Of a stretch of 64,000 nt of DNA, positions 4,502 through 62,374 are shown piece after piece. The notes under the pieces are model-generated. The model was not told where the DNA came from. It worked only from the letters and a program-made list of their open reading frames with translations, and made no database searches. Origin of the DNA: Pelagomonas calceolata (Eukaryota > Sar > Pelagophyceae > Pelagomonadales > Pelagomonadaceae). Positions within the stretch are counted from its first letter, which is position 1. The number at the start of each line of letters is the position of its first letter. The position numbers and the translations under genes were made by a program. The DNA lies in the NCBI GenBank assembly GCA_918797485.1, contig CAKKNE010000003.1, positions 1,798,001-1,862,000 on the forward strand, written 5' to 3'.

Positions 4502-4810
4502 TTGCCGGCTCGAGGCTCGAGCAGGCTGGCTCTAGTGTCTTACAGCCTGCTAGGTCTGCATGCATCAACCCAATCCTTGCCTCACACGTTCAAGGACGCG
4601 TCTCGGCGCGCGAGACCATTTCGTATCGTGCGGGACTCGAAAATGCAGCATCTGTGGGCCGCACACTCTCCCAATCCCAAGCTGTGCACGGAAGCGCATC
4701 GCTCGAAAACACACCTTTGACATCCGTGCCTGTCCGTCCAGCAACGAAGGGCTGCCTCTTTGGCTCCAGCTGTGGTGGCTGCTAGTCTGAACACAACAGC
4801 ATAGTACATC
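4502..4810. other. Divergent promoter region UAP1 / MgtE-like
   Basis: No gene seen. Contains one copy of the recurrent GCTAG palindrome (4532-4553), 31 bp from the UAP1 ATG and 258 bp from the MgtE-like ATG. Confidence 0.55.
4532..4553 (+). promoter_or_regulatory. GCTAG palindrome, copy 1
   Basis: CTAGTGTCTTACA, then GCCTG, then CTAG. Lies between divergent starts of UAP1 and the MgtE-like gene. Function inferred only from recurrence at promoters across the window. Confidence 0.6.
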
Positions 4811-5446
4811 ATGTCCGCGTCCGCGCCGCTCCTGCCCTCTGTGGCGAAGGAGCTCCCCGACACCGCAAGAGACGCCTACGCGGCAGCCACGGAGGACGTG
4901 CAGACGCGATTAACAAGGCGCCTGCCGCCTCTGGTATTAACGTTGTGTATTGAAATGGGAAATGCGGCCATCATCATGTCCTACAGCGGCGAGCTGCTGC
5001 GATATCCGCTGCTGGTCGGATTTATCCCCGTGATCTCCGCGCTGGGCGGCAACATCGGCCTCCAGTCGTCGTCAATCACGACGCGCGCGCTCTCGCACGG
5101 CCTTGCATCCGCAGATGAAGCGACAGCAACCATACGGCACGAGATGAGCGCCGTCGTGTTTTTGTCGGCGGCGCTGTCCGCGATGCTCTTCGCCATCGCG
5201 GCGACGTGGCGATCGATACAGACCTCGGAACTGGACTTTGGCTTTGGCTTCGTTGTGGCATTATCACAACTCGTGTCAGCTATCATGGGCGGGTTCTTAG
5301 GCGTCCTGACGCCGCTCTTCTACCGGTATATGGACATGGACCCCGCGTCGAATGCCGGGCCGCTGGATACCGCGGTCCAGGACGTGCTCGGCAACAGTCT
5401 TTTCCTCGCGACCGCGGGGTGGCTCCTTAATGTGTTTGGCTATTAG
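4811..5446 (+). CDS. MgtE/SLC41-type magnesium transporter, single membrane domain
   Basis: 211 residues with about five membrane segments. The MgtE membrane-domain signatures are visible: PVISALGGNIGLQSSSITTRAL (residues about 75-96, the GN-x-G-x-Q pore-helix motif) and DPASNAGPLDTAVQDVLGNSLF (residues about 178-199, the DPA...GP...D motif). Role: divalent cation (Mg2+) transport across a membrane. Bacterial MgtE has an added N-domain and CBS domains and animal SLC41 has two such membrane repeats; this protein has one repeat and no regulatory domain, so it probably dimerises. The 52-residue hydrophilic N-terminus shows no clear transit peptide. The 3' end abuts the convergent neighbour: only 5 bp separate the stop codons. 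Confidence 0.8.
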   Translation: MSASAPLLPSVAKELPDTARDAYAAATEDVQTRLTRRLPPLVLTLCIEMGNAAIIMSYSGELLRYPLLVGFIPVISALGGNIGLQSSSITTRALSHGLASADEATATIRHEMSAVVFLSAALSAMLFAIAATWRSIQTSELDFGFGFVVALSQLVSAIMGGFLGVLTPLFYRYMDMDPASNAGPLDTAVQDVLGNSLFLATAGWLLNVFGY

Positions 5447-5451
5447 TCATT

Positions 5452-6423
5452 TTATGTGGGCTTCGGCGTCGGCGCGAACGTCTCGAACGTGGGCACCGGC
5501 GACTCCGAGGGCTGGGCCGTCGTAGGCCCGGGCGTCGGCCGGATCGTCGGCGGCGAGCTGGGCCGCGGCGTCGGTCTAGCTGTCCGAAACAATTCGTCCG
5601 TGGCCGCGCCCCACTCCGGGCCGCAATTACCAGGACCGTGCTTGTCCGGGTAGACGGACCCGCACTGCGTCGCGTTGATGCGGAGGTGCGGCGCGAGGGC
5701 GTGCGGCGTGCCGATCATCGACCCGCGCATCGTGAAGACACTGGAAGGGTCGAAGTCCGCCCACCAGGACTTGATGGAGTTCTCGTCCGCGTCCCTGGAG
5801 AAGAAGCGCGCCGCGCCGTACAAATCGCCTCGACTATTCGCGTCCGGGTCGCCCCGCAATCGTACACAAAAATAGTCGCCCGCGCGAGCCGCGATCCTCA
5901 AGTCGTGCGTAACGTCACAAGACCTAGGATTGCCGTCCCACAGGAGGTCGGGGTCTCCGGTCCACCGACACCGCTCGTGGCCGCCGGTCGGTTGGACGTC
6001 CCAGGCCACCGCGTCCTCCGGGCGTGAAGAATCGCAGCCCGGCTCCACAATTACAACCATGTTCGCCGGGAAGCCGTCCGGCGTGAGTCGCAGCTCCGCT
6101 GACGCGACGGCGTCCTCGGACAGGTCCCTGACATCAAATCTTAAGTAGGTGACCCTATCTCCCATCTCTCTCGCTCCACAAATACCGCTGTCGGCGAAGT
6201 GGTCCGTCGGTTTGCTGTCGTACGAGTGGGAATTGCCTCTTACATACAAGTACGGTTCCGTGTGGTGGAGCTCGAACTTGGCGTAGCAGGCAGAGGCGTA
6301 GGTGTCTCCTTCTGTATACTTCGTGTAGTCGGCCAGGGGCCGCTCGAACTCGTTCTGGCAGCCCTCGGCCGTGCACCATGCTGTTGTTTGTCGGAGGAGG
6401 GTGAGGAGCAGGATGGTCTTCAT
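5452..6423 (-). CDS. Secreted protein with CBM96-like domain and Thr/Pro-rich tail
   Basis: 323 residues. Signal peptide at 1-15 (hydrophobic Leu-rich, then TTAWC). Residues about 50-240 resemble the DNRLRE/CBM96 beta-sandwich: YLYVRG near the start, VTYLRFDVRDL, then VASAELRLTPDG, the pattern of a strand-rich domain found on secreted carbohydrate-active or adhesin-like proteins. Several Cys pairs fit an extracellular fold. The last 45 residues are PTPRPS/PTP repeats, a linker or O-glycosylated stalk typical of stramenopile wall proteins. No catalytic motif is seen. Convergent with the MgtE-like gene; divergent from the SLC35B gene. Domain call is tentative; secretion is better supported. Confidence 0.6.
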   Translation of the reverse strand: MKTILLLTLLRQTTAWCTAEGCQNEFERPLADYTKYTEGDTYASACYAKFELHHTEPYLYVRGNSHSYDSKPTDHFADSGICGAREMGDRVTYLRFDVRDLSEDAVASAELRLTPDGFPANMVVIVEPGCDSSRPEDAVAWDVQPTGGHERCRWTGDPDLLWDGNPRSCDVTHDLRIAARAGDYFCVRLRGDPDANSRGDLYGAARFFSRDADENSIKSWWADFDPSSVFTMRGSMIGTPHALAPHLRINATQCGSVYPDKHGPGNCGPEWGAATDELFRTARPTPRPSSPPTIRPTPGPTTAQPSESPVPTFETFAPTPKPT

Positions 6424-6937
6424 CGGTTCGAATTGCTATCGTCGTCGGGCAGCCATTCGGCTCTGATTCAGCATGAATCGCATCTCGCGCTGCAGCGCTC
6501 TCGGCCGCGCGCTTGGGCAGCTATTTGTGTCTCTGCAGCGGCCCTCTCTTGTCTTGGTGTCCCGCGGCGCGGCTGGCGCTTGCAAAAACCAAGACAGAAT
6601 CCTCATTCGAGCCCTTGCATGAGTGGTTTGGAAGACGAGCACGGCTGAAAAAAATTGTCGGGGTGCGCCGGCGTCGACGCGCCTCAAAAGTTGCCTGTTT
6701 TGCCCCAGCGAGAGGCTAGCGGTGCATGTTAGCATAGCCAACGCAGCGAGTCATAGCAGCGCTCGACGAATTTGCAACTGCTGCATCCAGTCACCGGCGC
6801 CGGGTGCATAACTCAGCCGACGAGGCCACTGTGCAGCAGAGGCTATCGCGGCCGACGCGTGCCGACGCGCGAAGGCCCGCGCCTGACAGCGCCGCCGTCG
6901 CCGCCGACGCCACCGCGCGCGCGGAGAGCGCTGCGCC
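6424..6937. other. Divergent promoter region, secreted CBM96-like / SLC35B
   Basis: No gene seen in 514 bp. A degenerate copy of the GCTAG palindrome lies at 6715-6733 (GCTAGCGGTGCATGTTAGC). The rest is unremarkable GC-rich sequence. Confidence 0.5.
6715..6733 (-). promoter_or_regulatory. GCTAG palindrome, degenerate copy
   Basis: GCTAGCGGTGCATGTTAGC; on the opposite strand it reads GCTAACATGCACCGCTAGC, matching the ACATGC and CGCTAGC part of the consensus but lacking CTAGTGTCTT. Weak. Confidence 0.3.
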
Positions 6938-8020: not shown

Positions 8021-8036
8021 TAATGTGAATTAACGC

Positions 8037-9138: not shown

Positions 9139-9292
9139 GCTGATTTTTCCCTGCTTTGGCTGCAGTGCTTTTTTGCTGCGCTATAGTGTTGCTCGCGCTG
9201 GCTGTTGCGCGTCGCAGGCGTGCGGTGGCGTGCGCCGGCGATCGGTACGCACGTTATGCGGCGGATGCGCGCGAGGTCGAGGAGCCCTCTTT

Positions 9293-9314
9293 CTAGTGTC
9301 TTACATGCGCTAGC
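9293..9314 (+). promoter_or_regulatory. GCTAG palindrome, copy 2
   Basis: CTAGTGTCTTACA, TGCG, CTAGC. Between divergent alpha-SNAP (155 bp) and TrmH (86 bp) start codons. Confidence 0.65.
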
Positions 9315-9399
9315 TGCGCCGCGCGTAGCTCTCATTTCGCTGTGGTTTGCACTGTAAAACGGTCTAATTGGCGACTGCGTATTGCAACGACAGCGCGCG

Positions 9400-10448
9400 A
9401 TGAGCGCTGCACGCCAAGGCTGGCTGCAGGCCGCGCTTGGCGCTGCCGCCGGGGCTGCAGCCACGGCCCTGCTTTTACGCGCGCAGAAGCGATCGAATCT
9501 GCACGCGAGCGAAGAACTAGACAGTGCTGATGACCCGCTGAGAAGGTTCAGAAAAACTGAAGCAGTGATCCGCCGCCGCAACAGCCGCGTCGTCGTCGTC
9601 GTCGAGCGCTGCAACGAGTCCCACAACTGTGCTGCTCAGTGTCACTTCCTGCAATCTTTTGGGCTCGCGTCGATGGCGTCAAGCTCCACGCCATCGATGC
9701 GACGCCATCGACGCGACGGTTCCGTTCCCACACAGACAGCGCCGTCCTGCGCACCGCGGAAGCCCTCGGCTACCACCACGTCTGGGTCGTCGCGCCGCCG
9801 ACGCTGGATATTGATGCGGCCATCGCGAAGCGCCAGCCGCGGCGGGCGAAGAACGTCTGGAAGCAGGACGAGGACGATTTGCGCGAGCACGTGGCCTACG
9901 CGAAGCGGGCGAGCAAGTGGCTCCAGCTGCGGTTCTTCGCGGACTCGGACGCGTGCGTGGAAGCGCTCCGCGCCGATGGCCGCGAGATTTGGGTCACGGA
10001 CCTGTCGCAAGCGGCCGTGTGTCTGACGAACGCGAAGATGCGGCTCCCGGCGCGGTTGGCAGTCGTGATCGGCACGGAGTCCACCGGGTGCTCGCCGACG
10101 ATGCTGAGTGCGGCGGACAGGCGGATCTACATGCCGCTGCACGGGTTCGCGGACTCTCTGAACCTGTCGGTGGCCGCGGCGCTTTTGTTGCAGCGTCTGC
10201 AGGATATTGACGATACGGTGGTGGGGGACATGAGCGAGTCGGAACGGACGGCGCTCCGTAGGGAGTGGTATCCGCTCATGCTCCGGCCCACGGACGATCC
10301 CGAGGAAATAGAGCGCCTCGCGGCATCGGGAGGAGTACCGCCCCTCGGCGACCTCCGCCGGACGTCGTCGCACCGCGCGGGGTGGCTGTCGAAGAGCGTC
10401 GTGAAGAGCAACGCGGCGCGGGGGCAGGCGAACGGGATTGGGTCGTAA
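9400..10448 (+). CDS. SpoU/TrmH-family RNA 2'-O-ribose methyltransferase, organelle-targeted
   Basis: join(9400..9628, 9736..10448), 313 residues. SPOUT enzymes methylate the ribose 2'-OH of tRNA or rRNA using SAM. All three SpoU motifs are visible after splicing: motif 1 VVVERCNESHNYSAVLRTAEALG across the splice junction, motif 2 LAVVIGTESTGCSP (Glu and Gly of the knot), motif 3 YMPLHGFADSLNLSVAAALLL. The catalytic Arg of motif 1 (VLRTAEA) is present. The first 60 residues hold an Ala-rich hydrophobic stretch and Arg residues, suggesting organelle targeting or a membrane anchor. The C-terminal 60 residues are basic. Target RNA cannot be read from sequence. Start is the first ATG after the promoter palindrome; a TTG 18 bp upstream is not preferred. 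Confidence 0.87.
9629..9735 (+). other. Intron of the TrmH-like gene (GT-AG, 107 bp, phase 1), introner-like
   Basis: Starts GTGCTGCTCAGTG after ...CACAACT and ends GTTCCCACACAG before ACAGCGCC. Splicing gives HNYSAVLRTAEALG, the exact SpoU motif 1 pattern; other junctions break it. The CCACACAG end and the internal CGCGTCGATGGCGT (9666-9679) facing ACGCCATCGACGCG (9702-9715) are introner hallmarks, but the 5' terminus and target duplication have eroded. Confidence 0.83.
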
Positions 10449-10628
10449 TTATTGTTGTTGTGGTCCATCCGCTGGCTAGATTTCTCGTCTGTGATCAAAG
10501 CACGGGTTTTGCAGTGACTATTTTTGCCACAGCGTGTGCCGCATCCAGCCTTGGCACGCCGTAGCTTCGTCCAAAGGCGCGCCGGGGACTCCAAATCAGA
10601 GTGCCATCGCGCCCGTAGCACTCCGACC

Positions 10629-11267: not shown

Positions 11268-11336
11268 TGTTGTGACTAACGGTACTAGTAAATAAAGTAG
11301 GACCGAAGACGAACACAACATTTTTACAACCCCATA

Positions 11337-12470: not shown

Positions 12471-13045
12471 GGCTATGAAGCTAGATGGGCGCTCGCATCT
12501 TCCGGCGTGGGGGCTGCCCCTGCAGCTTGCCCGGTTGTCCGGGCGGGCGTTTGCCTCCACGCAGCCTCTCCGCGCAGGCAACTGGTCCGCGCTGGCAGCG
12601 GGAACAGTGAATTTCGCACAGCGCTAAGTCTGGCGCTGTCCGCGGAGGCTCGCACGTGGCAAGCGAAAGGAGCGATCGAGGCCCTCTTTGGACGGATCAC
12701 GGGCGCTCTAGAGCTCTGCGTCGGTTTGGTTTAAAACTGCTAGTGTGTCTATACCCAGAGCGGAGCAAGCAAGCAGCCGATTTACGAGCTTGTAGCTGCC
12801 GATTTGTGCGGCATAAAAGGCCTCCGGGCGGGCGAGGGGCTGGTTTTTTATTCGTTTTAGTACTCCTGTCAAACGTGCGGCCCAGGGACATCGCTTTCTT
12901 GTGTGCCAGAGGAGCGGCCCACCTTCCTGCATAACTCTGCTCAGAGGCAGCAGAGGAGGCAGCAGTGGGGAGCGCACGAGCGCGGACAGAGCAGCGAATC
13001 GGTTGCTGGGCGGCCTCGCTCGAAGCACAGCACAGCAAAACAACA
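12471..13045. other. Divergent promoter region, ubiquitin-like-domain gene / RING gene
   Basis: 575 bp with no convincing gene. Includes a partial GCTAG element at 12739-12752 and an ACAACA run immediately before the ATG at 13046. Confidence 0.5.
12739..12752 (+). promoter_or_regulatory. GCTAG element, half copy
   Basis: GCTAGTGTGTCTAT matches the left half of the palindrome; the right GCTAGC arm is missing. Confidence 0.35.
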
Positions 13046-15782: not shown

Positions 15783-15946
15783 GAGGCGGGCAGTGAAATG
15801 CAGTGGGCAGCTGCACAGCCTTGGGAACGCCTTTAAGCGTCGAGAAGCAGCTTCCTCGATTGTCTGCGGTCACAAAACAGATCGTTTGCAGGGCGGGGGG
15901 CAGCGTTTTCACCCCGCGCTGCCTGCTTAATTTTGCTTTGAGTCTC

Positions 15947-15970
15947 GCTAGTGTCTTACATGCCGCTAGC
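15947..15970 (+). promoter_or_regulatory. GCTAG palindrome, copy 3 (full)
   Basis: GCTAGTGTCTTACA, TGC, CGCTAGC. 165 bp from the coiled-coil ATG and 39 bp from the NXD1-like ATG. One of the most complete copies. Confidence 0.7.
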
Positions 15971-16008
15971 TGCCGCACTGGTTCCAAACGCTAAGACGAG
16001 TCGCATCG

Positions 16009-18404: not shown

Positions 18405-18747
18405 TTTTTTGATGCGATTGCGTGCTTGCTAATGCGAGGCTGTATGCGTCCGCTGTGCGGCGCTTGCAAGCCGTGTCTCCAGCAGCGCTGCGGCGGCCAG
18501 CGAAGGAGTGAAAAAGCCTTCACAAAGCTGCTGTAAGGCCGAAGGCGGCGTGCACGGCGACCGCGATTACGCGAGTGCTGCTTTTGCTTTGCTAGTGTCT
18601 TACAGTACGCTAGCCAGCTTTGCGACGCGTAAACGCTGCATACGCGCGGCCAGGCACATGTGTGACGCCCGGAGCAGCTACAAGTTATTGCTGTAGGCCA
18701 CCCCAACGAAATCGGGGCGCCACCGCCTGAATCACAGCTCCTGAGCA
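18405..18747. other. Divergent promoter region WDR33 / SAC3-like
   Basis: 343 bp without a gene. Holds a full GCTAG palindrome at 18591-18614. Confidence 0.55.
18591..18614 (+). promoter_or_regulatory. GCTAG palindrome, copy 4 (full)
   Basis: GCTAGTGTCTTACA, GTA, CGCTAGC. 187 bp from the WDR33 ATG and 134 bp from the SAC3-like ATG. Confidence 0.7.
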
Positions 18748-23262: not shown

Positions 23263-23407
23263 GAGGTTGTTGTGTTTATCGTCTCTTCACGCGCGGGTTG
23301 CTGGAAATCGGTTCTTCGGCCGCCGCCCGGCTAGGGCCCACAGATTGGTACTAGACACGAGCACAGATGTCGCTGACCAATCGAGTGGCGTGCGAGGGGT
23401 CCGCGCG

Positions 23408-23429
23408 CTTAGCGGCCTGAGACACTAGG
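23408..23429 (-). promoter_or_regulatory. GCTAG palindrome, copy 5
   Basis: Opposite strand reads CCTAGTGTCTCAGGCC then GCTAAGC. 127 bp before the ATG at 23556; supports that start rather than one at 23433. Confidence 0.6.
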
Positions 23430-23555
23430 AATTTGTATGGCATCATTGGCATGAGCAGAATTGCACCCCCGGCGCCAGCACTGCGCCCCCGCGCTGCCCA
23501 TCGTTCAGGTCAGCCAGAGCACATCTCCACCCCGCGGCCCGCGGCCTGTCCCCCG

Positions 23556-24455: not shown

Positions 24456-24490
24456 ATTGTAAAATATTTGTCTGAAACCTGTCCTACTTC

Positions 24491-24513
24491 GTTAGCGCCT
24501 GTAAGACACTAGC
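24491..24513 (-). promoter_or_regulatory. GCTAG palindrome, copy 6
   Basis: Opposite strand: GCTAGTGTCTTACAG, GC, GCTAAC. 139 bp before the MEKHLA gene ATG and 36 bp after the previous stop. Confidence 0.65.
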
Positions 24514-24651
24514 AAGCACCAGCTGACAGCCTGCAACAAAAACGCCATCACGCCATCATCGATTCATAGTTGTCACTTCAAAGGCTTCGCACGCACCACC
24601 CAATTCATTTCTGAGCAGCTTGGCATCCGTGCGCAAGGTTAGGAGGTCGTA

Positions 24652-28458: not shown

Positions 28459-28613
28459 GATTGGCGCAGCCGAAACCCGTGCAGTCGCGGCTGCGTCGGC
28501 GCGGCGGCGTCGGGCCGCAAACTCAGGCTCAGGCTATTTACGTCGCAGGGTTCCCCGTACCCCTCTCGCTCCCCCCGGGCCCACCCGTCCGGCTGGACTT
28601 AAGGACGCAATTT

Positions 28614-28636
28614 GCTAGTGCCTTACGGCCGCTAGC
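28614..28636 (+). promoter_or_regulatory. GCTAG palindrome, copy 7 (full)
   Basis: GCTAGTGCCTTACGG then CCGCTAGC. 202 bp before the ATG at 28838. Confidence 0.65.
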
Positions 28637-28837
28637 TCGACCCATCGGCCAAACTTGGCCTGTGGGCACAGACGAGCGCAACACGATCCTCAAGACGCTT
28701 GGAAGACACAAGCGATCGCCCAGGACACCTCAGCATCGCATTGGACAACTGGACGCACGCGTACGGCTCAGCAGAGCGTGTCCACTGTTAAGGCCTGATC
28801 ATCATCGCCCATCGACGCGGCGCCGCGACAAGCAGCG

Positions 28838-33173: not shown

Positions 33174-36100
33174 TTAAATTTCGAAGTCCGAAAAGTCGTC
33201 GTCGAAGTTGTAGTCGGTCCCCTCCGTCTGGGGCCGTGAGTCGAAGTAGCCGCCCGCCGTGCCGGCGGTCCCGGGTTTGGAATCAGCGGGCTCGCGCGTC
33301 TCCGGCCGCGAGTCGTAGTTCGAGTAGGAGTACCCGTCCGTGCCCGCCGTGCCGGCGCGGTTGGAGTAGCTCCGCGAGTCGTAGGTGCTCGGCCGCGAGT
33401 CGTCGTAATCCCGGCTGTCCACGGTTGTCGGGCGCGTGCCGGCCGTCCCGGGCTTCACAGCGTCGTCGCTTCCTCCGAAAAGGTCAGCTTCGAGCTCGTC
33501 GTAGTCGAACTCGTCCGTTGGCTTGTCTGCCGCCTTCGGAGGCTCCGCGACGGACGCCGAGTCCAAACCCAGGTCGCCGAGGCCGGCGAGGATGTCCTCT
33601 TCCTGTTCAGGCTGCGCGGCGGCGGGCTCCTCGGCCGGGGGCGTGACCTGCCGCAGCGACACCTCGCCGTCGCTGGAGTCCGACTCGACGTCGGCCAGCA
33701 TACTGCCCATCTGCTTGGCGGGCTTGGGCTCCTCGGCGGGCTCCGGCTCGGCCGCGGGCTCCGGTCGTATGTAGGCCGCGGGCACGTTGTCCTCAGTGTC
33801 CCCGTCATCATACTTGATGAAATGAGTGCCGTCGGGGTGCACGGTGAATATTTTGCCCGGGTACCAGGACTCGCCGCCATTATACCTTGCCTCGACGCGA
33901 GCGCCGATGGCGAACGCCGGCTCCGCCGCCGTGGCCGGCGGCTTGGCCGGCTCCTCTGGCTCCGCCGGCTTCTCGAGGTCGAGGCCGGGCAGATCCTCTT
34001 CCAGATCGGCGAGGATGTCGCCCGCGGGCTCCTCCGCGGCAGGCTCATCGGCCTTTCGCACGTCCGCTGCGGGCACGTTGTCCTGCTCATCTCCATCGTC
34101 AAATCTGATATAGTAGGTGCCGTCGGGGTGTGCTGTGAAGACTTTCCCGGGGTACCAGGCGTCAGAGCCATTAAACCTTGCCTCGATGCGGGCCCCGATC
34201 GCGAACGTCTCCGTTGCGGGGGGAGTTGCCGGCTTGGCGGGAGCAGGCTTGGCGGGCTCGGGCTCGAGCTCCTCTACGTCCGAGAGGTCGTCCGCTGCCG
34301 CAGGCGTCTTTGGCTTGAAGGGCTCAAGTTCTTCGACATCCGACAAGTCGCTCGCCGCCGCGGGCGTCGTCGGCGGTTGCGCGAACGTAGGCGCCTCCTC
34401 GGTCGGTAGCTCCGGTGTTTCGGGGTCTGGTTGCTTGGGTTCTTCTGCGTCGGAGAGCTCCGCAGCTGGCGTCTCGGGGGCGGCCTCAGCCAACCGCTCT
34501 GGCTCCGGTGCCGGAGTGGGCTCGGGTTCCCGCGGCGCCTCCACCGGCTTCTCGAGGTCAAGACCGGGAAGGTCGTCGTCCAAGCCGGCGAGGACGTCGC
34601 TCAGGTCGTCGTCCGACGACGGATTCGCGGGCTGTGAGGGCTCGTCCGCCGGCGTTTCGGACTTCTGGGCTGTCGTGTTTAGGCCCAGTTCGTCCTCGAT
34701 GCCGGCGAGGAAGTCGTCGCCGTCGTCATCGCCCGCGGCAGCGGCGGCGGGTTCCTCCGCGACAGGCTCGGCCTTGCGCACGAACGCGGCCGGCACCCGG
34801 TCTTCCTCGTCGCCGTCGTCGTAGTGAATAACGTAATGGCCGTCGTCGTGCACCGAAAAAACTTTCCCAGGGTACCACTTGTCGCCGCCCTCGAAGCGGG
34901 CCTCGACGCGCGCGCCCACGGCGAACTCCGACGCCGGCTTGGACGGTTCGAGCTCCTCCGCGTCGGACAAATCCTCCGCCGCGGGAGTCTTCGGCAATTG
35001 CGCGGTCTCGAGCTCCTCGACGTCGGAGAAGTCGTCCGCGGCGGCCGGCGTCGTCGGCTGATCGACGGGCTCGGGCGTCGCCGGCCGCCCCGCGGACGAG
35101 AGCGAGTTGCGCCGGGACGGCGCGACGGCGTCGTCGTCCGAGACCTCCTCGTCGAGCACGTCCTCGTTTTGACCTTTGGGCCGCGCCGGGCTCTCCCGCA
35201 GGTCCTGTTCCACGGGCTTGAAGGTCACGCCCAGCTCCTCCTCCGCGAGGTCGTCGTCGCCTCCTCCTAAATCACCCACTGACAGTTCAGCGTCGGGCGA
35301 CGCGGGTCTAGCGTCGCGAATGGGTGACGCCGCCAAGGCGTGGAGGATCTCCAGGTCCACGGAATTGTCCTCCTGCTTCGGCGCATCGAGTAAATCCGGA
35401 ATGTCGTCGTCCGACTGCAGGGACGGCCTCGTCGTCGCGGCGGTGGCCTCCTGCAGCATGGGGATCGGGTCGTCGTCGTCCTCCTTGAGCTCCGGTAGGG
35501 ACGGAATCGACTCCTCGTCGTCGAAGGGGTCGTACTGCGCGTCGTCCGACGCCCGCGCGTCGCGCATCGCCCGCGACGAGGCGAGCAGCGCCGCGGCGGC
35601 CGCGTCGTCCTCGGCCGCCGCGCAAGCTAGGGCGTGCGTCACGTGAGGTTCTAAAGCGTCCAAGCCGTAGCCGACGGCGTTATCCAAAGCCACGAGCAGC
35701 TTCTCCCTCACAATTCTTCGCAGTTCCCTCTCGAGGGCGTTGCACTCGCGCGAGCCCCTCCTAGGTGGCCTGGCTTCATCTGTTTTAGTTTTTAACAAAG
35801 CTTCCCAGTAGTTCGGCAGCTCCAGGATGTTGTCACACGTATGCGACTGGGGCACCATGGCCAGCATCCTCCGTTGCTCGTCGACGCCGAACGGTAAAAA
35901 GGGTAACTCCACCGTCAAAAACTCCGCGTGCCTCGCCGGTAACCGAGACACCCCGGTCACAAAGACAAGTAATTTCCTTCTTTGCGCGGGTGTTAATGGC
36001 TCACAACGCCGCGGTGCCTCTTCACCGGTCAGGTCATCGATCTTCTTCAGCTCGAGGTCGTTGAGCGCGTCGTCCTCCCCATCGACCACCGCCCAGAGCG

Positions 36101-39100
36101 CGTCATGCAAAGGCCGGCAATCCCTTAATTCAGCATCCATGACCACCCGAAACACGTCTCGGAATCGGAAATCTCCCCGAACTTCAGGAGCACCGCACGC
36201 CACGCGCTGCAAATCCCGCGCCGACGGCCGCACCGCCCTCCGCACCTTCTTCGGCATGGCGCGCTCGAAACCTCGCCTCAGCGCGCGCAGCTGCCACTCC
36301 AATTCACGACATCTTTCCAGTGAAGCTTTCCTCGCGACCTCCAAGGCATGATCCTGACTCGATAGCGTGATCCCTTCCATGTCCGCGACACTCTGAATGC
36401 CCGTCGCATCCAAGGCTCGGAGCCCTCGCAAGGCGTCGTCGTAGGACGCGTCCAGGGCCCTTAGGCCCGCGTCGCCCCTCTTGGCGAGGAAATGGTCTAC
36501 TAAATGAGTAGCTGTATCATTCGGTGCGTCCTCTGCGACGCCGAGCACTTCAAAGAAGAGCGGAGGCAGATCTAGGGGCAGCTGGCACTGGTTCGGGACC
36601 GCCGAACCGATCAACAAGCCTAATGTGGCTAACCGTTTGGCGTTCTCGGCGGTCCTAGGCAAGGCCGGATTCGGCCATAGAGCTTCCAAATCCTTCCGAT
36701 GGGCTAGTAGAGGTGCTGCTGAGCGTCTAGCCTCGCAGACCGACCCGGTTAACGCTTCCAACAACTTGGTTTCTGCGTCTTCACTATCACCATACCTCTT
36801 CGCGAGGACGCGCACGGCGGGCGCGTTCGTCGACACCCTCACCACGTTATCAGAGACCTTCTCCACTTGTAGTTCTAACGTGTCGCCTTCAAAGTCCACC
36901 GCGAGACAGTCCCCTGATTTCACAACTTGGGGGTTCGCTTCGTCACAAGTAACTCGTAATGAGCGAGCACCTTCACTTGCTTCGACGCGCAACGGATCAC
37001 CAATAACAGGCGTCCAGGATCTAGTGACGGCACCACCTAATAAAGCAAAGAGTTCCTTGCGCGGGCCTAGGCCTTCGCCCTCCTCGACTGCGCTACCCTC
37101 GACATACTTTTGGCCGAAGGGCACCCGGTAGTAGGGACACACGACAAATGAAGCTTCTCCTTTAATGGGAGGGTCGTCCTCGTCTTCTAACGAAACACTC
37201 TCGTCGTCCGACTCCTCCTCGAGGGCAAATGCGTCATCGGACAGAACCTGTGAAGAAGCTTCCTGCAGCGCGCCGGCGTGCTTCTCCAATAGAGCTTCGC
37301 AGTCCTCCCAGGCCCTCTTGCGGGACGTCACGAGGTTCAGGCGCTGCGCCGGTCGCCTCGCTAGAGCCACATAGAGTAACGCGGCCTTCGAGGCCGGCCG
37401 TAATAAAGCCGCGTGGTCCCTTAGCCGAGGCAATCCTAATAACCCCTCCAACCGTAATAAACCACGAGCCTTCGCCACGCTCGCAACTTCCGAGTCGACG
37501 AGCATGGGCGTGACCACAGCTAAGGCTTCGTTCACCGATCGCACGTGGAACCGCTCCTCGGCGGCGCCCAACGAACTCTCCCCTGGGGCTAACGCGGGCG
37601 TTTCTGTTAATGCAGCACAGCCGACGTCGGACCCGGCCCCCAGATCATTCTTCTCCTCCTGGTTTGATGAATCGGGCTCGCTCAGGTCTTGCAGGACTTT
37701 CGGCGGATTCTCGACCGATGCTTCGGCTAGTAAACAGTAGGCCCTTTGCAGAGCATGAGCGGCCGCAGACGCTCTTTTAGATCCAGTAGCGTCGACCCGC
37801 CCGACTTGGGCCTCGACCGCATCCACGGCTTGCGTCAGCGTCAATTCGCCGCGCTGCTGTTGGGCTAGCACCCAGTCGCGGCACCTTGCCACTCGAGGCA
37901 CGACGGCCGCGTCCACGGACCACCGCAAACACCTTATGACAGACCTCGCGGCCCCCGGCGGCGTGTCCTCCCCCAGAAGGAGTTCTCGGAGCCACGCCGA
38001 GACGCCTTCTCTATTCTCGGATACGGCCTCGGCCAAGGCATCGGCCGCCGCCGCGTACAACTGCTGCGCGTCGGGCACGGCGCGATGCGGTTGGTTCGCA
38101 GATGTCTTGAACGCCGTGGCGCCCGCTTGTACGACGGGCTCCCACGTCTGTTTAAGTCGCTCGCATTCCGACCAGCACTTCAGCGGCGCCTCCTCGACCT
38201 TGGCCGTCGCGGGCCGCATCGCCGCTTGTAACCTAATAACACATTCTGAGGCGGACGGTCGCAAGTTACTGTCGCAGTGGAGCATATCTTTAAGAACGTC
38301 GACGACGGGCTCCGACAAAGCTTTCACCAAAGCTCCTCGTCGCGAAGCTTTCAGACCCGGCGCCGGCCCCGCGTCCAGGCATCTTCGGGGCACGCCCAAA
38401 CCCATCAAGTACTGACCTACTTGCTCGGGAAACGGTCCTAGTACTCTTGACACCCGTCGTAACACGGCATGCTCGTCGTCCCCAGGGAAGAGTGGTTCGC
38501 CCGTAGCTAGTTCAGCCGTGATGCACGCCGCGCCCCAGACGTCCACGGCCACGCCGTATTTCGTCGAGGAGGCCATCATCTCCGGCGCTCGGTACCACCT
38601 ACTCCCAATATAGTGCGTCAGGTCCAGACAGCTCTTCCCCGACACGTCCTCGAGCTTCCGCGCGGCCCCGAAGTCGCACAACCGCAGTTGCGGCCTTTGG
38701 GGATCGTCCCACGATCGCTGTAAATCGTCTTTCGTCGCATCTCTCGATAAAAGCACGTTCTCAGGCTTGACGTCGCGGTGGACAATGCCCAAGGAGTGGG
38801 CATGCGCTAAGCCCGCACACAAGTCTGAGGTTAAACCAACACAGAGACCCTTCGGTAGGGGACCTAACTCTTCCAACGCTTCCAAGCACGTGCTACCAGC
38901 TAGTTCAAAGCATAGCACCGGTGCACTTACTGTTTGTTGTGGTTTTATTTTCACGTCCTCGCGCCACCAATCAACTAAACAAGCTACGTTCTTGTGGTCT
39001 CGCCCCAACAATAATAAGACATCTCGTTCCCTCTCTGCGGTTTGTACGGCATACCGCGCGGCGTCGTCGTCGTCTTCGCCCTCGACCACAACTTTCAACC

Positions 39101-40586
39101 TTTTGACGGCGACCTGCTGGCCCGTCTCCCGGTGGCGAGCCTGTTTCACCTCACCGTAGGCCCCTTCGCCGAGCAACCCCGGCTCGAAGACATACTTCGC
39201 GGCGCCCTCCGCAGTTACAACTTCGTCGAAATCGTCGTCATAATCCTGCGAACTGGTCAAACCGGACGCGCTGTCGCCACCGGGGGCCTGCGTCGGCTCG
39301 TCCGAGACACTTTCATGGTCGTCGTCCGCCCGCCAGATGTCGGGCTCCGCGATGGCCACCGTCTTCTGCGAAGCTGGTGACGTAGCAGTGATCTTTCTCA
39401 GTCTATCTTGTGGTACTTTATCCTCCTCGTCGCCGTCGTCGTACTTGATAAGGAAGGTGCCGTCGTCATTCATTGCTCCAATTTGTCCAGCGTAGAACTC
39501 GCCGAGGCCCTCGAAGTCGCCTTCGACGCGGTCGCCGACTTTGAATAGTGGTGTTGGCTTGGGCGTCGGTTCTTTTGGCTGTTGCGGCGTGGGCTGTTGC
39601 GGCGTCGGCTGGTGAGGCGTCGGCTGCTTAGGTGTCGGTTCTTTTGGCGTCGGCTGGTGCGGTGTGGGCTGTTTAGGAGTCGGCTGCTTCGGCGTCACTG
39701 GCGCCGCGGGCTCCTCAGCAACCGACGCGGCCTGGACCTCCTCGTCGTAGGCCAAGGCCGCCGCCCGGACCTCGGCCAAGCGGCGGCGCGCCGGACCCTC
39801 GCCCGTCCTCATTGGTGTTTTCTTCACCGATGACGGCGTCGCCTCGCCGGTCCGCGCGCTCTTGTACTTCTCTCCAATATCCTCCTCGCGGTCCTCGATC
39901 TTCTCGATTTGACGTCGCTTGCGTCCGGACCGCGCGACGACCTCGTCGGCCTTTTTACGACGCACGACGTCGAGGATGACCACAGAAGCTGCTTGTAATC
40001 TACCAACATCTCGGGCCTTGCCCACGCCCCGGATCTCGTCTCGCGTCAAGAGCAACGGGTTCCCGCGACAGAAACAAGCCAGCCGCCACGCCTCACTGCC
40101 CAAGGCTTCCGACACGAAGTCCAGGTCGTCCGACATCTTGAGGAGGTAGTCGCGCCCGTTCCAGAGGAACGGCCGCGGCCGCGCGCAGTCCTTCGACTCG
40201 ACGAGCACCCAGGCCACGATCTTCTCCACACATCTGAGCCCGGCCGTCCTCAGTTCCGAAGCGACGTTCTTGAGTAAGCGCGCGGCCTCCGCGGCCGATC
40301 GTTGCGCCGACGCTCTACGCGGCCAGTGCAGCACGACGGCGTTCAGCTGCATCAGTAAAGTTTCGCGGTAGCCGACGGCTCTAGCCGCCGCGACCTTGCG
40401 CTGGTAGGCGACCTCCTTGGGCCCGGGCGGCGCCTCTTGAGCGCGGACCGGCTTCTGGTGGTTCTTGACGCGCGGCTTCGCCGGCTGCCCTGGTAAAGGA
40501 CGCATCCTCAAATTCGGCATGCCCGGCGGCGCCTTCTTCCGCCGCGGGCGGCGGCCGCGCTCGGCGGGCTTGTTGTTGCGCCTCAT
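33174..40586 (-). CDS. Giant fusion: CMGC-like protein kinase + HECT E3 ubiquitin ligase + four Tudor-like modules
   Basis: 2470 residues in one uninterrupted exon. N-terminal 290: basic, helical. About 294-341: QPTPK/HQPTP repeats. About 347-396: Tudor-like module 1 (VGDRVEGDF...YAGQIG...IKYDDGDEEDKVP). About 465-795: Ser/Thr kinase with GEGAYGEV loop, AVKRLK lysine, HRDVKPENV (Asp605), CDFGAARKL, HYIGSRWYRAPEMM and DVWGAACITAELATGEPLFPG, the CMGC/CDKL-like pattern. About 1150-1690: HECT domain; N-lobe has GEGLGPRKELFALL, C-lobe has LLVFVTGVSRLP and the catalytic-cysteine motif SHTCDNILELPNYW with Cys1584, then KLLVALDNAVGYGL. About 1700-2470: acidic disordered tail with repeated SDVEELEP motifs and Tudor-like modules 2-4 (about 1888-1942, 2128-2182, 2226-2274), each FA(V/I)GAR(V/I)EAR...WYPGK(V/I)F. 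All key kinase and HECT residues are intact. Confidence 0.85.
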   Translation of the reverse strand: MRRNNKPAERGRRPRRKKAPPGMPNLRMRPLPGQPAKPRVKNHQKPVRAQEAPPGPKEVAYQRKVAAARAVGYRETLLMQLNAVVLHWPRRASAQRSAAEAARLLKNVASELRTAGLRCVEKIVAWVLVESKDCARPRPFLWNGRDYLLKMSDDLDFVSEALGSEAWRLACFCRGNPLLLTRDEIRGVGKARDVGRLQAASVVILDVVRRKKADEVVARSGRKRRQIEKIEDREEDIGEKYKSARTGEATPSSVKKTPMRTGEGPARRRLAEVRAAALAYDEEVQAASVAEEPAAPVTPKQPTPKQPTPHQPTPKEPTPKQPTPHQPTPQQPTPQQPKEPTPKPTPLFKVGDRVEGDFEGLGEFYAGQIGAMNDDGTFLIKYDDGDEEDKVPQDRLRKITATSPASQKTVAIAEPDIWRADDDHESVSDEPTQAPGGDSASGLTSSQDYDDDFDEVVTAEGAAKYVFEPGLLGEGAYGEVKQARHRETGQQVAVKRLKVVVEGEDDDDAARYAVQTAERERDVLLLLGRDHKNVACLVDWWREDVKIKPQQTVSAPVLCFELAGSTCLEALEELGPLPKGLCVGLTSDLCAGLAHAHSLGIVHRDVKPENVLLSRDATKDDLQRSWDDPQRPQLRLCDFGAARKLEDVSGKSCLDLTHYIGSRWYRAPEMMASSTKYGVAVDVWGAACITAELATGEPLFPGDDEHAVLRRVSRVLGPFPEQVGQYLMGLGVPRRCLDAGPAPGLKASRRGALVKALSEPVVDVLKDMLHCDSNLRPSASECVIRLQAAMRPATAKVEEAPLKCWSECERLKQTWEPVVQAGATAFKTSANQPHRAVPDAQQLYAAAADALAEAVSENREGVSAWLRELLLGEDTPPGAARSVIRCLRWSVDAAVVPRVARCRDWVLAQQQRGELTLTQAVDAVEAQVGRVDATGSKRASAAAHALQRAYCLLAEASVENPPKVLQDLSEPDSSNQEEKNDLGAGSDVGCAALTETPALAPGESSLGAAEERFHVRSVNEALAVVTPMLVDSEVASVAKARGLLRLEGLLGLPRLRDHAALLRPASKAALLYVALARRPAQRLNLVTSRKRAWEDCEALLEKHAGALQEASSQVLSDDAFALEEESDDESVSLEDEDDPPIKGEASFVVCPYYRVPFGQKYVEGSAVEEGEGLGPRKELFALLGGAVTRSWTPVIGDPLRVEASEGARSLRVTCDEANPQVVKSGDCLAVDFEGDTLELQVEKVSDNVVRVSTNAPAVRVLAKRYGDSEDAETKLLEALTGSVCEARRSAAPLLAHRKDLEALWPNPALPRTAENAKRLATLGLLIGSAVPNQCQLPLDLPPLFFEVLGVAEDAPNDTATHLVDHFLAKRGDAGLRALDASYDDALRGLRALDATGIQSVADMEGITLSSQDHALEVARKASLERCRELEWQLRALRRGFERAMPKKVRRAVRPSARDLQRVACGAPEVRGDFRFRDVFRVVMDAELRDCRPLHDALWAVVDGEDDALNDLELKKIDDLTGEEAPRRCEPLTPAQRRKLLVFVTGVSRLPARHAEFLTVELPFLPFGVDEQRRMLAMVPQSHTCDNILELPNYWEALLKTKTDEARPPRRGSRECNALERELRRIVREKLLVALDNAVGYGLDALEPHVTHALACAAAEDDAAAAALLASSRAMRDARASDDAQYDPFDDEESIPSLPELKEDDDDPIPMLQEATAATTRPSLQSDDDIPDLLDAPKQEDNSVDLEILHALAASPIRDARPASPDAELSVGDLGGGDDDLAEEELGVTFKPVEQDLRESPARPKGQNEDVLDEEVSDDDAVAPSRRNSLSSAGRPATPEPVDQPTTPAAADDFSDVEELETAQLPKTPAAEDLSDAEELEPSKPASEFAVGARVEARFEGGDKWYPGKVFSVHDDGHYVIHYDDGDEEDRVPAAFVRKAEPVAEEPAAAAAGDDDGDDFLAGIEDELGLNTTAQKSETPADEPSQPANPSSDDDLSDVLAGLDDDLPGLDLEKPVEAPREPEPTPAPEPERLAEAAPETPAAELSDAEEPKQPDPETPELPTEEAPTFAQPPTTPAAASDLSDVEELEPFKPKTPAAADDLSDVEELEPEPAKPAPAKPATPPATETFAIGARIEARFNGSDAWYPGKVFTAHPDGTYYIRFDDGDEQDNVPAADVRKADEPAAEEPAGDILADLEEDLPGLDLEKPAEPEEPAKPPATAAEPAFAIGARVEARYNGGESWYPGKIFTVHPDGTHFIKYDDGDTEDNVPAAYIRPEPAAEPEPAEEPKPAKQMGSMLADVESDSSDGEVSLRQVTPPAEEPAAAQPEQEEDILAGLGDLGLDSASVAEPPKAADKPTDEFDYDELEADLFGGSDDAVKPGTAGTRPTTVDSRDYDDSRPSTYDSRSYSNRAGTAGTDGYSYSNYDSRPETREPADSKPGTAGTAGGYFDSRPQTEGTDYNFDDDFSDFEI

Positions 40587-41946: not shown

Positions 41947-42012
41947 CGTGGGCTGCTCCCCGGTGCCGTTACTACGAGGCCTTGCGTCCCAGACTTTTTC
42001 TGAGGCCCCATC

Positions 42013-42033
42013 CTAGTATGTCAGTACGCTGGC
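42013..42033 (+). promoter_or_regulatory. GCTAG palindrome, degenerate copy
   Basis: CTAGTATGTCAGTACGCTGGC: left arm CTAGT, right arm GCTGGC. Between divergent starts at 41946 and 42234. Confidence 0.4.
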
Positions 42034-42233
42034 TTCGGTGCCTTTCGCATTTTTTGCTCTGTCTGGACGCTACTGCCAGTATCGGAGCTCGGAATCGGTT
42101 TGAGGTGACGCATTGACTTGCTGTGCAACTAGTTCCGCATCGCTTTCTGCGACGCTCACCTTGCAGCGTGACAAAAGCAGCACAGGCTTGCAGCGCCACC
42201 CTGAGACGCTTTTTGACGACGACCGCAAAAGCC

Positions 42234-44551: not shown

Positions 44552-44996
44552 TTTGTTATGGTGTGTACAAGCTCGTAGGTGTAGCTCCAGGCAGAAAATC
44601 GGTCCGCAGCAGGGCGATTGCTCCACCGGGGCTGCGCCGGCGGTGCGTGTGGCGCTGCCCGTCCACTGATAGTGGCACAGGCTGCCCAAAAGAGCTTGCA
44701 AGCTCGCACAACGGGTCTGCTGCAGCGCCCAAGCTTCGCGGCCGCCGGCCTTTGGGGTTCGAGTGAGTGATGTGTGCGTGGCGTGTCACGTAGGCGACGC
44801 GTAGGCGAGCGTTCCGTGGACAGTTCTCGAGAGCTAGTGTGTTAACATGACCGCTAGGTCCATTATCCAGCCGCATCGGTCAGGAGCAGCGCTGTATCTC
44901 ACGAGATAGCAAGCCCTCGCCCCCAGAAACCTTCTGGAGAGGAGCTCTGCAACAATCAAAACCGGAAACCCCACCGCTGGCCGGCCCCATGCGAAG
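44552..44996. other. Divergent promoter region, methyltransferase / small Lys-rich ORF
   Basis: 445 bp. Holds a long-spaced GCTAG palindrome at 44833-44857. No gene seen. Confidence 0.5.
44833..44857 (+). promoter_or_regulatory. GCTAG palindrome, copy 8
   Basis: GCTAGTGTGTTAACATGA, CC, GCTAG. 282 bp from the methyltransferase ATG and 140 bp from the small-ORF ATG. Confidence 0.55.
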
Positions 44997-49104: not shown

Positions 49105-49497
49105 TTTTGCGGGACGCTTTTTCTACTGGGATCCAAGCCGCCTTTTTTTGGGGAGCGCGAGGACTGCTGTACAATTCCCGTACCGCTCAGGCGCTTGAGT
49201 GGCGACCGCTGAACAGCACCAGGGGCTCCAAGGGGCCCTTGTGCCCAACCTTGCCAAAAAATGGCAAAACCGGCGAAGCTAGCGTCTTGTAAGACACTAG
49301 CAATCACAAAAACTTAAGCGCGCCGTGGCATTGCTGCGTGTAGTCAAGCCACTGGCACCTGCTGAGGCGTGAAAATCACTACTTTCATATCGTGTGGGCC
49401 GCACATAAGCTCGAGTAGCTTTCACGCCGCGTGCCGCCCTTGGCAAGGAGAGCATTCATATCAGTTTAAAACACTGCGGTGAACGCTGCGGCGAACG
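49105..49497. other. Divergent promoter region, CxFxP-repeat gene / 49498 gene
   Basis: 393 bp, no gene. Contains the most symmetrical GCTAG palindrome of the window (49278-49301). Confidence 0.55.
49278..49301 (-). promoter_or_regulatory. GCTAG palindrome, copy 9 (near-perfect)
   Basis: GCTAGCGTCTTG followed directly by TAAGACACTAGC; the two 12-bp arms are inverted copies with two mismatches. 174 bp from the minus-strand ATG and 197 bp from the plus-strand ATG. Confidence 0.7.
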
Positions 49498-51041: not shown

Positions 51042-51479
51042 GCTGCACTTGTGGTGCAGAGAACTCCGCGCGCCAGCAACACTTATGGAAATCGCTTCGC
51101 ACACGTAACCTCCGTATGTTATGCAAGCTCTAGCCGCTGCGCGTGGCTTCGGCGGCCACTTAATGACCGGCCAGCCAAATCCAGCCTTTCTTGCTAGTGC
51201 CTTACATGTCGCTAGCTCCGGTTTTGGCCATTTTGGTGAGATCTCCCGTGCTAGCTAGGTTGCAGCCGCATCGCTCCGGAATTAGGGGCTCCGAGGCCAC
51301 ATCTCTTCGCGTACTTCTTTTCGCAGCTCAATTCGTCAATCCTGCATCGCTGTGATCATTTTTAGCAGTGAGAGACTCAGAGAGCAACCTGCCGCGGCGT
51401 GCATCACTGGATGAAACGGAGAGCCGCAACCGCTGGATCATCAGCGCTTTCTCGTGCAGCAGCACAGCCTCGTCCGCAG
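51042..51479. other. Divergent promoter region, THI5-like / metallophosphoesterase
   Basis: 438 bp with a full GCTAG palindrome at 51193-51216; no gene seen, and no riboswitch-like THI element could be recognised by eye. Confidence 0.5.
51193..51216 (+). promoter_or_regulatory. GCTAG palindrome, copy 10 (full)
   Basis: GCTAGTGCCTTACA, TGT, CGCTAGC. 152 bp from the THI5-like ATG and 264 bp from the phosphoesterase ATG. Confidence 0.7.
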
Positions 51480-52517: not shown

Positions 52518-52589
52518 TTGATTGTGTGATCTTGATGTTCGTGAATTTTTCTGTTCGGTGCCAGGACCAGTCGGCGGAATTATTGTTCC

Positions 52590-52609
52590 GCTAGTGTCTA
52601 ACCGCTAGC
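52590..52609 (+). promoter_or_regulatory. GCTAG palindrome, copy 11 (short)
   Basis: GCTAGTGTCTAA then CCGCTAGC, with the TACA centre shortened. 138 bp before the PPPDE ATG. The base at 52590 is read as the G of the left arm. Confidence 0.6.
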
Positions 52610-52746
52610 TGGCAGTCAATAAATCCAACAACTTGTTGCTGCGAGATTGCTGCTTGCGTCGCAAACTTGCAGCATACGAGGCAGACGCACCGGCTACTGA
52701 TTCATCGTAACGCCTGTCGCCGCGGCACAAAGCTCTCTCCACGACG

Positions 52747-56589: not shown

Positions 56590-57006
56590 CGTGCGGCCCT
56601 GCGAGTGCCTTGGGGCTGCCTACCTCTTGTACTGTTGCGGAGCGCCGGCCGCGGCGATGGCGCGGGGGCTGCCCGTTATCGATGCGAGGCGTCGCGCGCG
56701 CGCGTCTGTCTTCGTGGTACGCCGTCGTGCGTTAGGTCTAGCCTATAAGCAATCCGCCGAGGCGCTATGGGGCTAGTGCCTTAGCTCCGCTAGCTTTCAG
56801 CCTCGGCGCGCGGCATCTGTTTTTGTGCCGTCCTCCCGTGCAAAGTATAGCCAAAAAGTCGTGCAGGAGTCGTGTCTGCGAACCGTCGAACCGGGCGCTT
56901 ATTGTTCAGTACTGCTGGCACGCGTACAAGCCCGAGAGCATCTCACAAACAGGAGAGCACATTGGCAGACTGCCGCCAAAGCCGGCGCATAGCTCGGCAT
57001 AACAGC
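56590..57006. other. Divergent promoter region, PKG-like / alpha-beta hydrolase
   Basis: 417 bp, no gene. GCTAG palindrome at 56772-56794. Confidence 0.55.
56772..56794 (+). promoter_or_regulatory. GCTAG palindrome, copy 12 (full)
   Basis: GCTAGTGCCTTAGCTC then CGCTAGC. 183 bp from the PKG-like ATG and 213 bp from the hydrolase ATG. Confidence 0.65.
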
Positions 57007-57693: not shown

Positions 57694-57703
57694 ACACAGA
57701 TTA

Positions 57704-58147: not shown

Positions 58148-58659
58148 GACTAGTGCGCGCAGCGACGGCGTGAGTGGCTCTGTAATGCTTAAAGCACTTG
58201 AGCACGCAGCGCTGGCTGTGTATGCTTAAACCAGCGCGCTGGCGCGGGAGAGGCTGTGCCCTGGATCGGTTTCACAGGCAACGCGGCGGACAGGCGAGTT
58301 TGCTGCTTCGACTAGAAGGCCGATGTGAATCCCTGCGCCTGCGTGTGGCCACAAGAGCCAAGCACAATGGCTTTTTAAGCTGGCGCGCCAAGCTCGATGA
58401 GCTAGCGGCCCGTAAGATACTAGGCTACGGCAAAAGTGAGACACCTCGTTCAGGAGCAGGCAACGCATGACTAGGCCTCCAATTACACCTCCCAGAGCCG
58501 AGCTAGTGCAGAGACTCTAGCTAGAGGGACCGGTAGCTTTTGCACACCGCGAAACGAGGCGCACGAAGGCAATCTGGGCAGCCGAAGGGCTGCGAATTGA
58601 TCGAGCGAAGTCATTGCGACGCGCCGCGGGACGCAATCACAGCAGACGGGCTGCGAATC
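58148..58659. other. Divergent promoter region, Siva-type / kinesin
   Basis: 512 bp, no gene. GCTAG palindrome at 58401-58423. Confidence 0.5.
58401..58423 (-). promoter_or_regulatory. GCTAG palindrome, copy 13
   Basis: GCTAGCGGCCCGTAAGATACTAG; opposite strand begins CTAGTATCTTACGGG and ends CCGCTAGC. 254 bp from the Siva ATG and 237 bp from the kinesin ATG. Confidence 0.65.
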
Positions 58660-61710: not shown

Positions 61711-61713
61711 ACA

Positions 61714-62220
61714 CTACTTATGCCTCGCCCGCTCCCGCCGCGCGGCGGCCTTCCGCCGTAGCTCGCGGGCCCACGTTTCAAAGTCGTCGACCTCGCGCAG
61801 CAGCGAGACGACCTCGCGGCAGCCATCGCGCGCCCAGGTCCAGCCCTCGCGCTTCTCGATCGTTTCGACGAGGCGCACAAAGCTCTGCGGCGTGTGATGT
61901 GACCTCTCCAGGACGCCCTGCACGTGACCCTCGACCAGGCTCTTGAAAGCATGGTGAAGCTCCGTCCAAACCAAGGGATATTCGCCGTCGCCAGCGTCGT
62001 CGTCGGCCGCCATCGCACGATCCGCGAAGGTCTCGATCTCGTCGCGCAGCGAGTGGCCCTCCTTCGACTCGCACGAGTTCCAGGCGTCGTCATCGCTGCT
62101 GTCGCTCGAGTCGCCGCCACCACCGATGCTTATGGGCTCATAGAGCAGGTCCTCCAGTGAGCCGAGCACTGTCATCACAATCTCTTCGTCTTCGCCATCG
62201 ATCTCCTCGCAGACCGGCAT
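61714..62220 (-). CDS. BART (ARL2-binding-protein)-like domain protein
   Basis: 168 residues. Acidic Ser/Asp-rich loop at 25-50, then helices that follow the BART pattern: VLGSLEDLLYEP (human ARL2BP: VVGYLEDIIMDD), FADRAMAADDDAGDGEYPLVWTELHHAFKSLVEGHV (human: ENKLIYTPIFNEYISLVEKYI), then SFVRLVETI and LLREVDDFETWARELRRKA (human: DMLLTFTDFLAFKEMFLDYR). BART proteins bind ARL2/ARL3 small GTPases and act in ciliary and mitochondrial traffic. Four acidic residues at the middle loop are unusual but tolerated. Short relative to CFAP36 (about 330). The GCTAG palindrome at 62352 lies 132 bp upstream. Confidence 0.62.
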   Translation of the reverse strand: MPVCEEIDGEDEEIVMTVLGSLEDLLYEPISIGGGGDSSDSSDDDAWNSCESKEGHSLRDEIETFADRAMAADDDAGDGEYPLVWTELHHAFKSLVEGHVQGVLERSHHTPQSFVRLVETIEKREGWTWARDGCREVVSLLREVDDFETWARELRRKAAARRERARHK

Positions 62221-62351
62221 CGCTGCCCGCACCGCTGCGCACGGGTATGCGGGCTGCCCCCGGGCAGTTCTCTAGGTCGCGGGCAGTGCTGGAGCTGCCC
62301 AGGCCGGCAAAGGATGCCTCAAAGGCGCTCCATTGCCAGACAGCCCCAAAA

Positions 62352-62374
62352 GCTAGTGCCTTGGATTAACTAGC
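62352..62374 (+). promoter_or_regulatory. GCTAG palindrome, copy 14
   Basis: GCTAGTGCCTTGGATTA, then ACTAGC. 132 bp upstream of the BART ATG and only 10 bp from the end of the filamin-repeat gene. Confidence 0.6.

Follow-up and report, generated by a model that had tools for sequence, protein, structure and literature searches.

Yeast general regulatory factors such as Reb1, Abf1 and Rap1 recognize long, specific sites in promoters, divergent promoters included. A shorter element, the CGCG element of CpG-island promoters (consensus TCTCGCGAGA), is described as a 10-bp palindrome, one copy of which drives two-way reporter transcription; imperfect palindromes were also active, and an inserted central base abolished the activity (PMC6192621). 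In stramenopiles, the heat-shock element TTCTAGAA, bound by the heat-shock factor (HSF) of an oomycete, carries a CTAG inside an inverted repeat (PMC11267843), and the genome report of the pelagophyte Pelagomonas calceolata describes introner elements, intronic units of about 210 bp present in many copies (PMC9481584). Here we analyse an imperfect palindrome of 20–25 bp that recurs upstream of genes in a 64,000-base stretch of P. calceolata DNA, hereafter the window, and throughout the genome of this alga.

The CGCG element and the Pelagomonas palindrome are both palindromic; two-way action was demonstrated with reporters for the former and is proposed from sequence for the latter. The CGCG element is 10 bp long, has a rigid centre and belongs to CpG-island promoters, whereas the palindrome is 20–25 bp long, has arms separated by an asymmetric spacer that varies in length, and occurs in a stramenopile alga. 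It does not match the CGCG consensus, and the two sequences are unrelated. The sites of Reb1, Abf1 and Rap1 are likewise unrelated in sequence, and in Pelagomonas a proxy based on upstream ATG triplets places the transcription start at the edge of the element. The half-sites of HSF are GAA, whereas each arm of the palindrome has its own CTAG, and neither a GAA array nor an inverted GAA repeat was found in it. The introner elements differ in being in-gene units of about 210 bp, while the palindrome is 20–25 bp long and lies upstream of genes. From the evidence below, we consider it probable (roughly 65%) that the palindrome serves Pelagomonas as a bidirectional core-promoter element to which a symmetric protein binds. 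A role as such a promoter element was one of three proposed in a preliminary description of the window, and of the three it fits best; the second, a transcription-factor dimer site, is compatible with it, as the protein that would bind the element.

The assembly that we searched comprises 32,445,274 bases in eight contigs. For the RCC100 genome, its report gives 32.4 Mb in six nuclear contigs, besides a plastid and a mitochondrion, with a GC content of 63.6% and 16,667 genes (PMC9481584). The window has a GC content of 64.3%, and its proteins are eukaryotic (for example SNAP, SAC3/GANP and kinesin). The two-armed pattern GCTAGTGYCTTA-N2..10-GCTAGC matched 1685 times genome-wide, as compared to none for the reversed pattern used as the control. 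With at most two mismatches, GCTAGTGYCTTACA was found at 3874 places in the whole genome against 114 for its reversed pattern; in the window, with at most three mismatches, it had 16 matches against 4.08 expected, a number reached in none of 100 shuffles. The excess is far stronger genome-wide than in the window, and the observation is confirmed as real.

For the relation to genes, we used a 314-kb sample, made up of the window together with the 200 kb that follow it, and of 50 kb from contig 1. It holds 205 gene models derived from codon statistics, which are based on open reading frames (ORFs), contain no introns and were extended to the first in-frame ATG. The sample was searched with a two-armed profile (left arm ttGCTAGTGTCTTACA, right arm CGCTAGCt, variable gap between them), and 71 sites remained once overlapping matches had been removed. 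The raw count was insensitive to the threshold (71 at 18 and 79 at 8), and the reversed sequence gave 0 to 4. When a profile built from the window only was applied to the held-out 250 kb, it found 53 sites against 2 in the reversed control at a threshold of 14, and 64 against 11 at a threshold of 10; with the arm boundaries taken from the full profile, the result at 14 was 53 against 1. Divergent or tandem gaps contained 49 of the 53 held-out sites; of the other four, 2 were in convergent gaps and 2 in gene models or at edges. As the two arms show, the consensus is imperfectly symmetric, and some copies carry two TG-type arms (for example TTGCTAGTGTGTCTGTATACACTAGCT). Extrapolation from 71 sites per 314 kb gives roughly 7,000 sites in the whole genome, as compared to its 16,667 published genes, if the sample is typical.

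The spacing of the arms is constrained. Among the 100 matches listed of the 1685, 64 were 24 bp and 23 were 23 bp long, followed by 5 each of 20 and 22 bp, 2 of 25 bp, 1 of 27 bp and none of 21 bp. The 71 profile sites behaved similarly, with 7, 0, 12, 15, 30, 6 and 1 sites in the gap classes −1 to 5, and the strict 21-bp form occurred only 4 times genome-wide against 49 for the 20-bp form. This pattern would fit a protein that reads two half-sites, prefers certain distances between them and hardly tolerates others.

The sites lie upstream of genes. The preliminary description had named an even spread over coding and intergenic DNA as the outcome that would speak against it; instead, 67 of the 71 sites were located in the 64 kb of divergent and tandem gaps, and only 2 in the 237 kb of coding models, at 137 and 218 bp inside the model start. 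The models that hold these two may start too early. Divergent gaps contained 42 sites in 32.4 kb (40 of 66 gaps occupied) and tandem gaps 25 sites in 31.5 kb (24 of 67 occupied). Occupancy is nearly single, as only three gaps had two sites, two of them divergent and one tandem. Random placement of the 42 sites by gap length filled a mean of 29.3 divergent gaps as compared to the 40 observed, which was reached in none of 20000 trials. Within divergent gaps shorter than 700 bp, the 37 sites were central (variance of position 0.024, against 0.083 for a uniform distribution). A site was present upstream at 100 of the 194 gene starts with an upstream gap of at least 60 bp, and the distance from site to start, for distances up to 600 bp, was 125–275 bp in 72 of 101 cases. 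Codon scores were alike (p = 0.34), with a median of 0.157 in genes that have a site and of 0.166 in those that lack one. No TATA or CCAAT peak stood out on inspection by eye, with no null for comparison.

Orientation is free, as had been expected of a palindromic site: in tandem gaps, 10 sites had the same orientation as the genes and 15 the opposite one. In being near-palindromic, independent of orientation and located in promoters, the palindrome resembles bidirectional palindromic promoter elements of the CGCG kind. Its location also bears on the idea of a signal for replication origins or recombination whose presence in promoters is incidental. Open promoters are often used by origins and recombination hotspots, which counts for this idea; however, the extrapolated 7,000 or so sites are many for origins, and the location follows the gene starts, those of tandem genes included, so that we regard it as very unlikely.

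The relation to the transcription start was approached through a proxy. Upstream ATGs are selected against in leaders, and their depletion was taken to mark the transcribed leader. Because the extension of the models to the first in-frame ATG removes some gene-side ATGs by construction, counts without the start-codon frame were also made. With this frame excluded, the density of sense upstream ATGs in 94 genes ranged from 0 to 7.0 per 1000 positions over the eight gene-side bins, and from 11.3 to 16.9 over the five bins beyond the palindrome. The depletion changes strand at the palindrome and was apparent within 10 bp of the palindrome edge (2 ATG against 7 CAT in 37 divergent gaps, both small counts). 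In all frames, the wrong-strand fraction was minimal when the reference point was shifted by −10 or 0 (0.213 and 0.214) and rose when it was shifted away. Permuting the positions among the gaps gave a mean fraction of 0.307 against the observed 0.214, with none of 2000 permutations as low; without the start-codon frame, the values were 0.308 and 0.220, with none of 500 as low. In tandem gaps, the gene side had 11 ATG and 52 CAT in all frames, whereas the region beyond the palindrome had 30 and 24 (Fisher 1.9e-5). The corresponding counts without the start-codon frame were 9 and 37 against 17 and 16 (Fisher 0.004), and this filtered test is weaker than that in all frames. The simplest reading of the proxy is that the palindrome, or a point very close to it, is where the leaders begin, and the proxy supports a close link between the palindrome and the transcription start.

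The same counts bear on a hairpin acting in RNA, within the 5′ leader. The arms could pair as RNA, but the 25 sites in tandem gaps are divided between the two orientations (10 and 15), and a hairpin in divergent gaps would need a place in two opposed leaders simultaneously. Moreover, given that sense ATGs are undepleted beyond the palindrome in tandem gaps, the leader seems to begin at the palindrome. A role of this kind therefore appears highly improbable.

If the palindrome is a bidirectional core-promoter element, a symmetric DNA-binding protein, dimeric or with two domains, would recognize two GCTAG half-sites whose CTAG cores are 14 or 16–19 bp apart. The bound protein would position the transcription machinery, and RNA would start close to either edge of the palindrome, as the proxy suggests. 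One element could thereby serve two genes where they diverge, or a single gene where they are in tandem. In a bolder form, Pelagomonas would use one dominant bipartite palindrome in place of the usual core-promoter vocabulary or in addition to it; about half of the genes would have this palindrome as a two-way initiator, read by a dimeric protein with two discrete geometries (CTAG cores 14 or 16–19 bp apart, hardly ever 15). We hold this extension tentatively, at somewhat less than even odds.

Several observations weigh against a core-promoter element. Convergent gaps contained 2 sites in 10.8 kb (2 of 66 gaps occupied), and 26 of the 66 divergent gaps had no palindrome, most of them not even a weak site. 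The plain midpoint of the same divergent gaps gave a wrong-strand fraction of 0.265, which is below the permuted 0.307 but above the observed 0.214, so that part of the signal in divergent gaps is mirror symmetry; mirror symmetry cannot create the signal in tandem gaps. The base composition showed no sharp initiator-like signal at any fixed distance from the palindrome, and the start position is read from ATG depletion, a proxy that depends on intron-free, ORF-based models. The evidence from a relative comes from one 8-kb block, in which one of the counterparts aligned in place differs by an extra base in the long arm of the Pelagomonas copy, and a weak fifth site (L092:460) has no Pelagomonas counterpart.

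A serious rival, to which we nevertheless give a clearly lower probability, is a site of the general-regulatory-factor type, whose factor would open promoter chromatin while the starts are set separately, at variable distances. Near-single, central sites in either orientation at about half of the gene starts would fit such a factor, as would the varied functions among the ten neighbour genes scanned, and long specific sites are usual for this class. On the other hand, the ATG switch is already present within 10 bp of the palindrome, closer than expected for a regulatory-factor site well upstream of the starts. The counts behind this switch (2 ATG, 7 CAT) are small, and the proxy cannot securely resolve tens of bases; nor can it prove that the palindrome sets the start position.

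In the window, the preliminary description had listed 17 places, and the described kind of sequence is present at all 17, at most 1 bp off the position given. Ten of the listed copies are in divergent gaps. The strongest is the almost fully symmetric copy at 49277..49303 (minus strand, profile score 42.3), followed on the plus strand by 15945..15971 (39.5), 51191..51217 (39.2), 18589..18615 (39.1) and 9290..9315 (38.2), and by 58400..58426 on the minus strand (30.1). Lower scores were obtained for the plus-strand copies at 56770..56795 (27.2), 4529..4555 (27.0), 44831..44859 (22.0; the widest gap between the arms) and 42010..42034 (18.6; diverged). Tandem gaps contain five: 24490..24515 (minus strand, 35.9), 28612..28637 (plus, 34.9), the short 20-bp form at 52588..52610 (plus, 25.2), 23407..23431 (minus, 22.4) and 62350..62375 (plus, 19.1), the last between two genes on the minus strand. 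Thus, all 15 of these profile members are in gaps upstream of start codons of the ORF-based models, as had been claimed. The remaining two places, which had already been called degenerate, are not members: no site was found by the profile at 6715..6739 (below threshold), and 12737..12762 (plus strand) has only the left arm, with a best score of 2.5, also below threshold. One member had been missed, a second and weaker copy at 58501..58523 (minus strand, 20.0) in the gap of the 58400 site. A local duplication as the origin of this pair was rejected, as the independent flanks agree at only 13 of 61 and 12 of 60 positions.

DNA of a relative was found in a contig binned with a Spirochaeta genome (L092; 8,293 bases, of which 8,000 were compared), which is collinear with Pelagomonas contig 6 at 83–94% identity in the matches. 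All four Pelagomonas sites of the collinear block have a counterpart in the matching gap of L092. Two of these align in place, one of them with 1 difference in 22 bases. The other two are in poorly aligning gaps, one in the opposite orientation, and they are weak evidence on their own because the density of sites in such gaps is high. As far as this alignment reaches, the palindrome is partially conserved in one relative. The contigs of the relative contain further sites (L110–L112), in stretches that have matches in Pelagomonas.

These comparisons, together with the sequences at the edges of the sites, bear on the third proposed role, the footprint or ends of a tiny mobile element preferring gene starts. 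Thousands of dispersed copies would fit such an element. In addition, 5-bp direct repeats at the edges numbered 7 where 2.5 were expected (7 or more were seen in 2 of 300 shuffles), and six pairs of sites share a common flank, one of 236 bp at 76% and five of 23–75 bp. However, an 8-bp duplication was found at none of the 71 sites, and the 4-, 6- and 7-bp edge repeats (11, 2 and 1, against 9.5, 0.67 and 0.24 expected) were not unusual among shuffles. The flanking positions carry at most 0.2 bits, highest next to the motif, so that little sequence is shared beyond the ends. Near-single, central occupancy also speaks against mobility, as does the presence of counterparts where the gaps of the relative match those of Pelagomonas, and we consider this role of the palindrome, too, to be highly improbable.

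The gapped form gave 15 matches in bacterial genomes. The contigs L089, L092, L093 and L099, from bacterial metagenome-assembled genomes, contain stretches like Pelagomonas nuclear DNA, probably as a result of mis-binning; L089 and L093 match Pelagomonas over only part of their length, L099 matches in two pieces on two contigs, and L095 has one frame with HAD and ankyrin matches. In viral contigs, the exact 14-mer was found in 48 stretches, none of which had CTAGC within the next 16 bases, and the seven matches to the gapped form were taken as chance; one sequence accounts for four of them and another for two, and the seventh has 58% GC.

Two repeats were noted in these contigs. A repeated 190-bp segment of L099 was considered as a motif-carrying mobile element, and this was dropped, as the segment begins with the palindrome and continues into an open frame; it is taken as a multicopy gene start. 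For this gene-start segment (L099:2087-2278), 38 further Pelagomonas matches were listed (40 of 87 candidates scored), and in 18 of these 38 the similarity begins at query positions 2079–2088, the outer edge of the palindrome. By eye, the segment enters a frame with paired cysteines. The other repeat, of about 157 bp, occurs at L092:299-455 and L092:2050-2172, with dozens of Pelagomonas copies listed. The second of these copies ends 25 bp from a palindrome, and the corresponding place in Pelagomonas lacks the repeat.

Literature searches, covering open-licence papers by their top-ranked matches, supplements excluded, returned no description of the palindrome. The words motif, palindrom and promoter do not occur in the main text of the Pelagomonas genome paper (PMC9481584), nor do promoter, palindrom, motif and transcription factor in the later transcriptome paper (PMC12054182), and the two papers listed with a piece of the sequence deal with thalassaemia testing and diphthamide. 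The sequence, split form, spacing rule and prevalence of the palindrome thus appear new, whereas palindromic two-way promoter elements are already a known kind, as the CGCG paper describes them (PMC6192621). Little seems to be known of pelagophyte promoter grammar, as no match was among the top-ranked search results. Gene annotation would gain from a single sequence rule by which the start region can be located in about half of the genes, and the palindrome would offer two-way promoters for engineering. It would also point to a new basal or near-basal factor, which could be approached biochemically, in a direct way, through the nearly forbidden spacing.

Other recurrent words were observed in the gaps of the 314-kb sample. 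A second candidate promoter word, GGGCAGCC/GGCTGCCC, is present in 16 of the 40 divergent gaps with the palindrome and in 15 of the 26 without it, as well as in 12 of 67 tandem gaps and 1 of 66 convergent gaps. The word ACGCCATCGACGCGAC, noticed by eye, recurs in tandem and convergent gaps (for example at 9667 and 54442 of the window); its core ACGCCATC occurs in 19 of 67 tandem, 14 of 66 convergent and 5 of 66 divergent gaps, and it is perhaps a 3′-end or dispersed-repeat element. A stretch of contig 1, at about 2.52–2.96 Mb, had no two-armed sites among the matches listed and is perhaps a low-GC centromere region. In the window, positions 33174-40586 hold an open frame of 2470 amino acids with protein kinase, HECT and several Tudor/Agenet matches.

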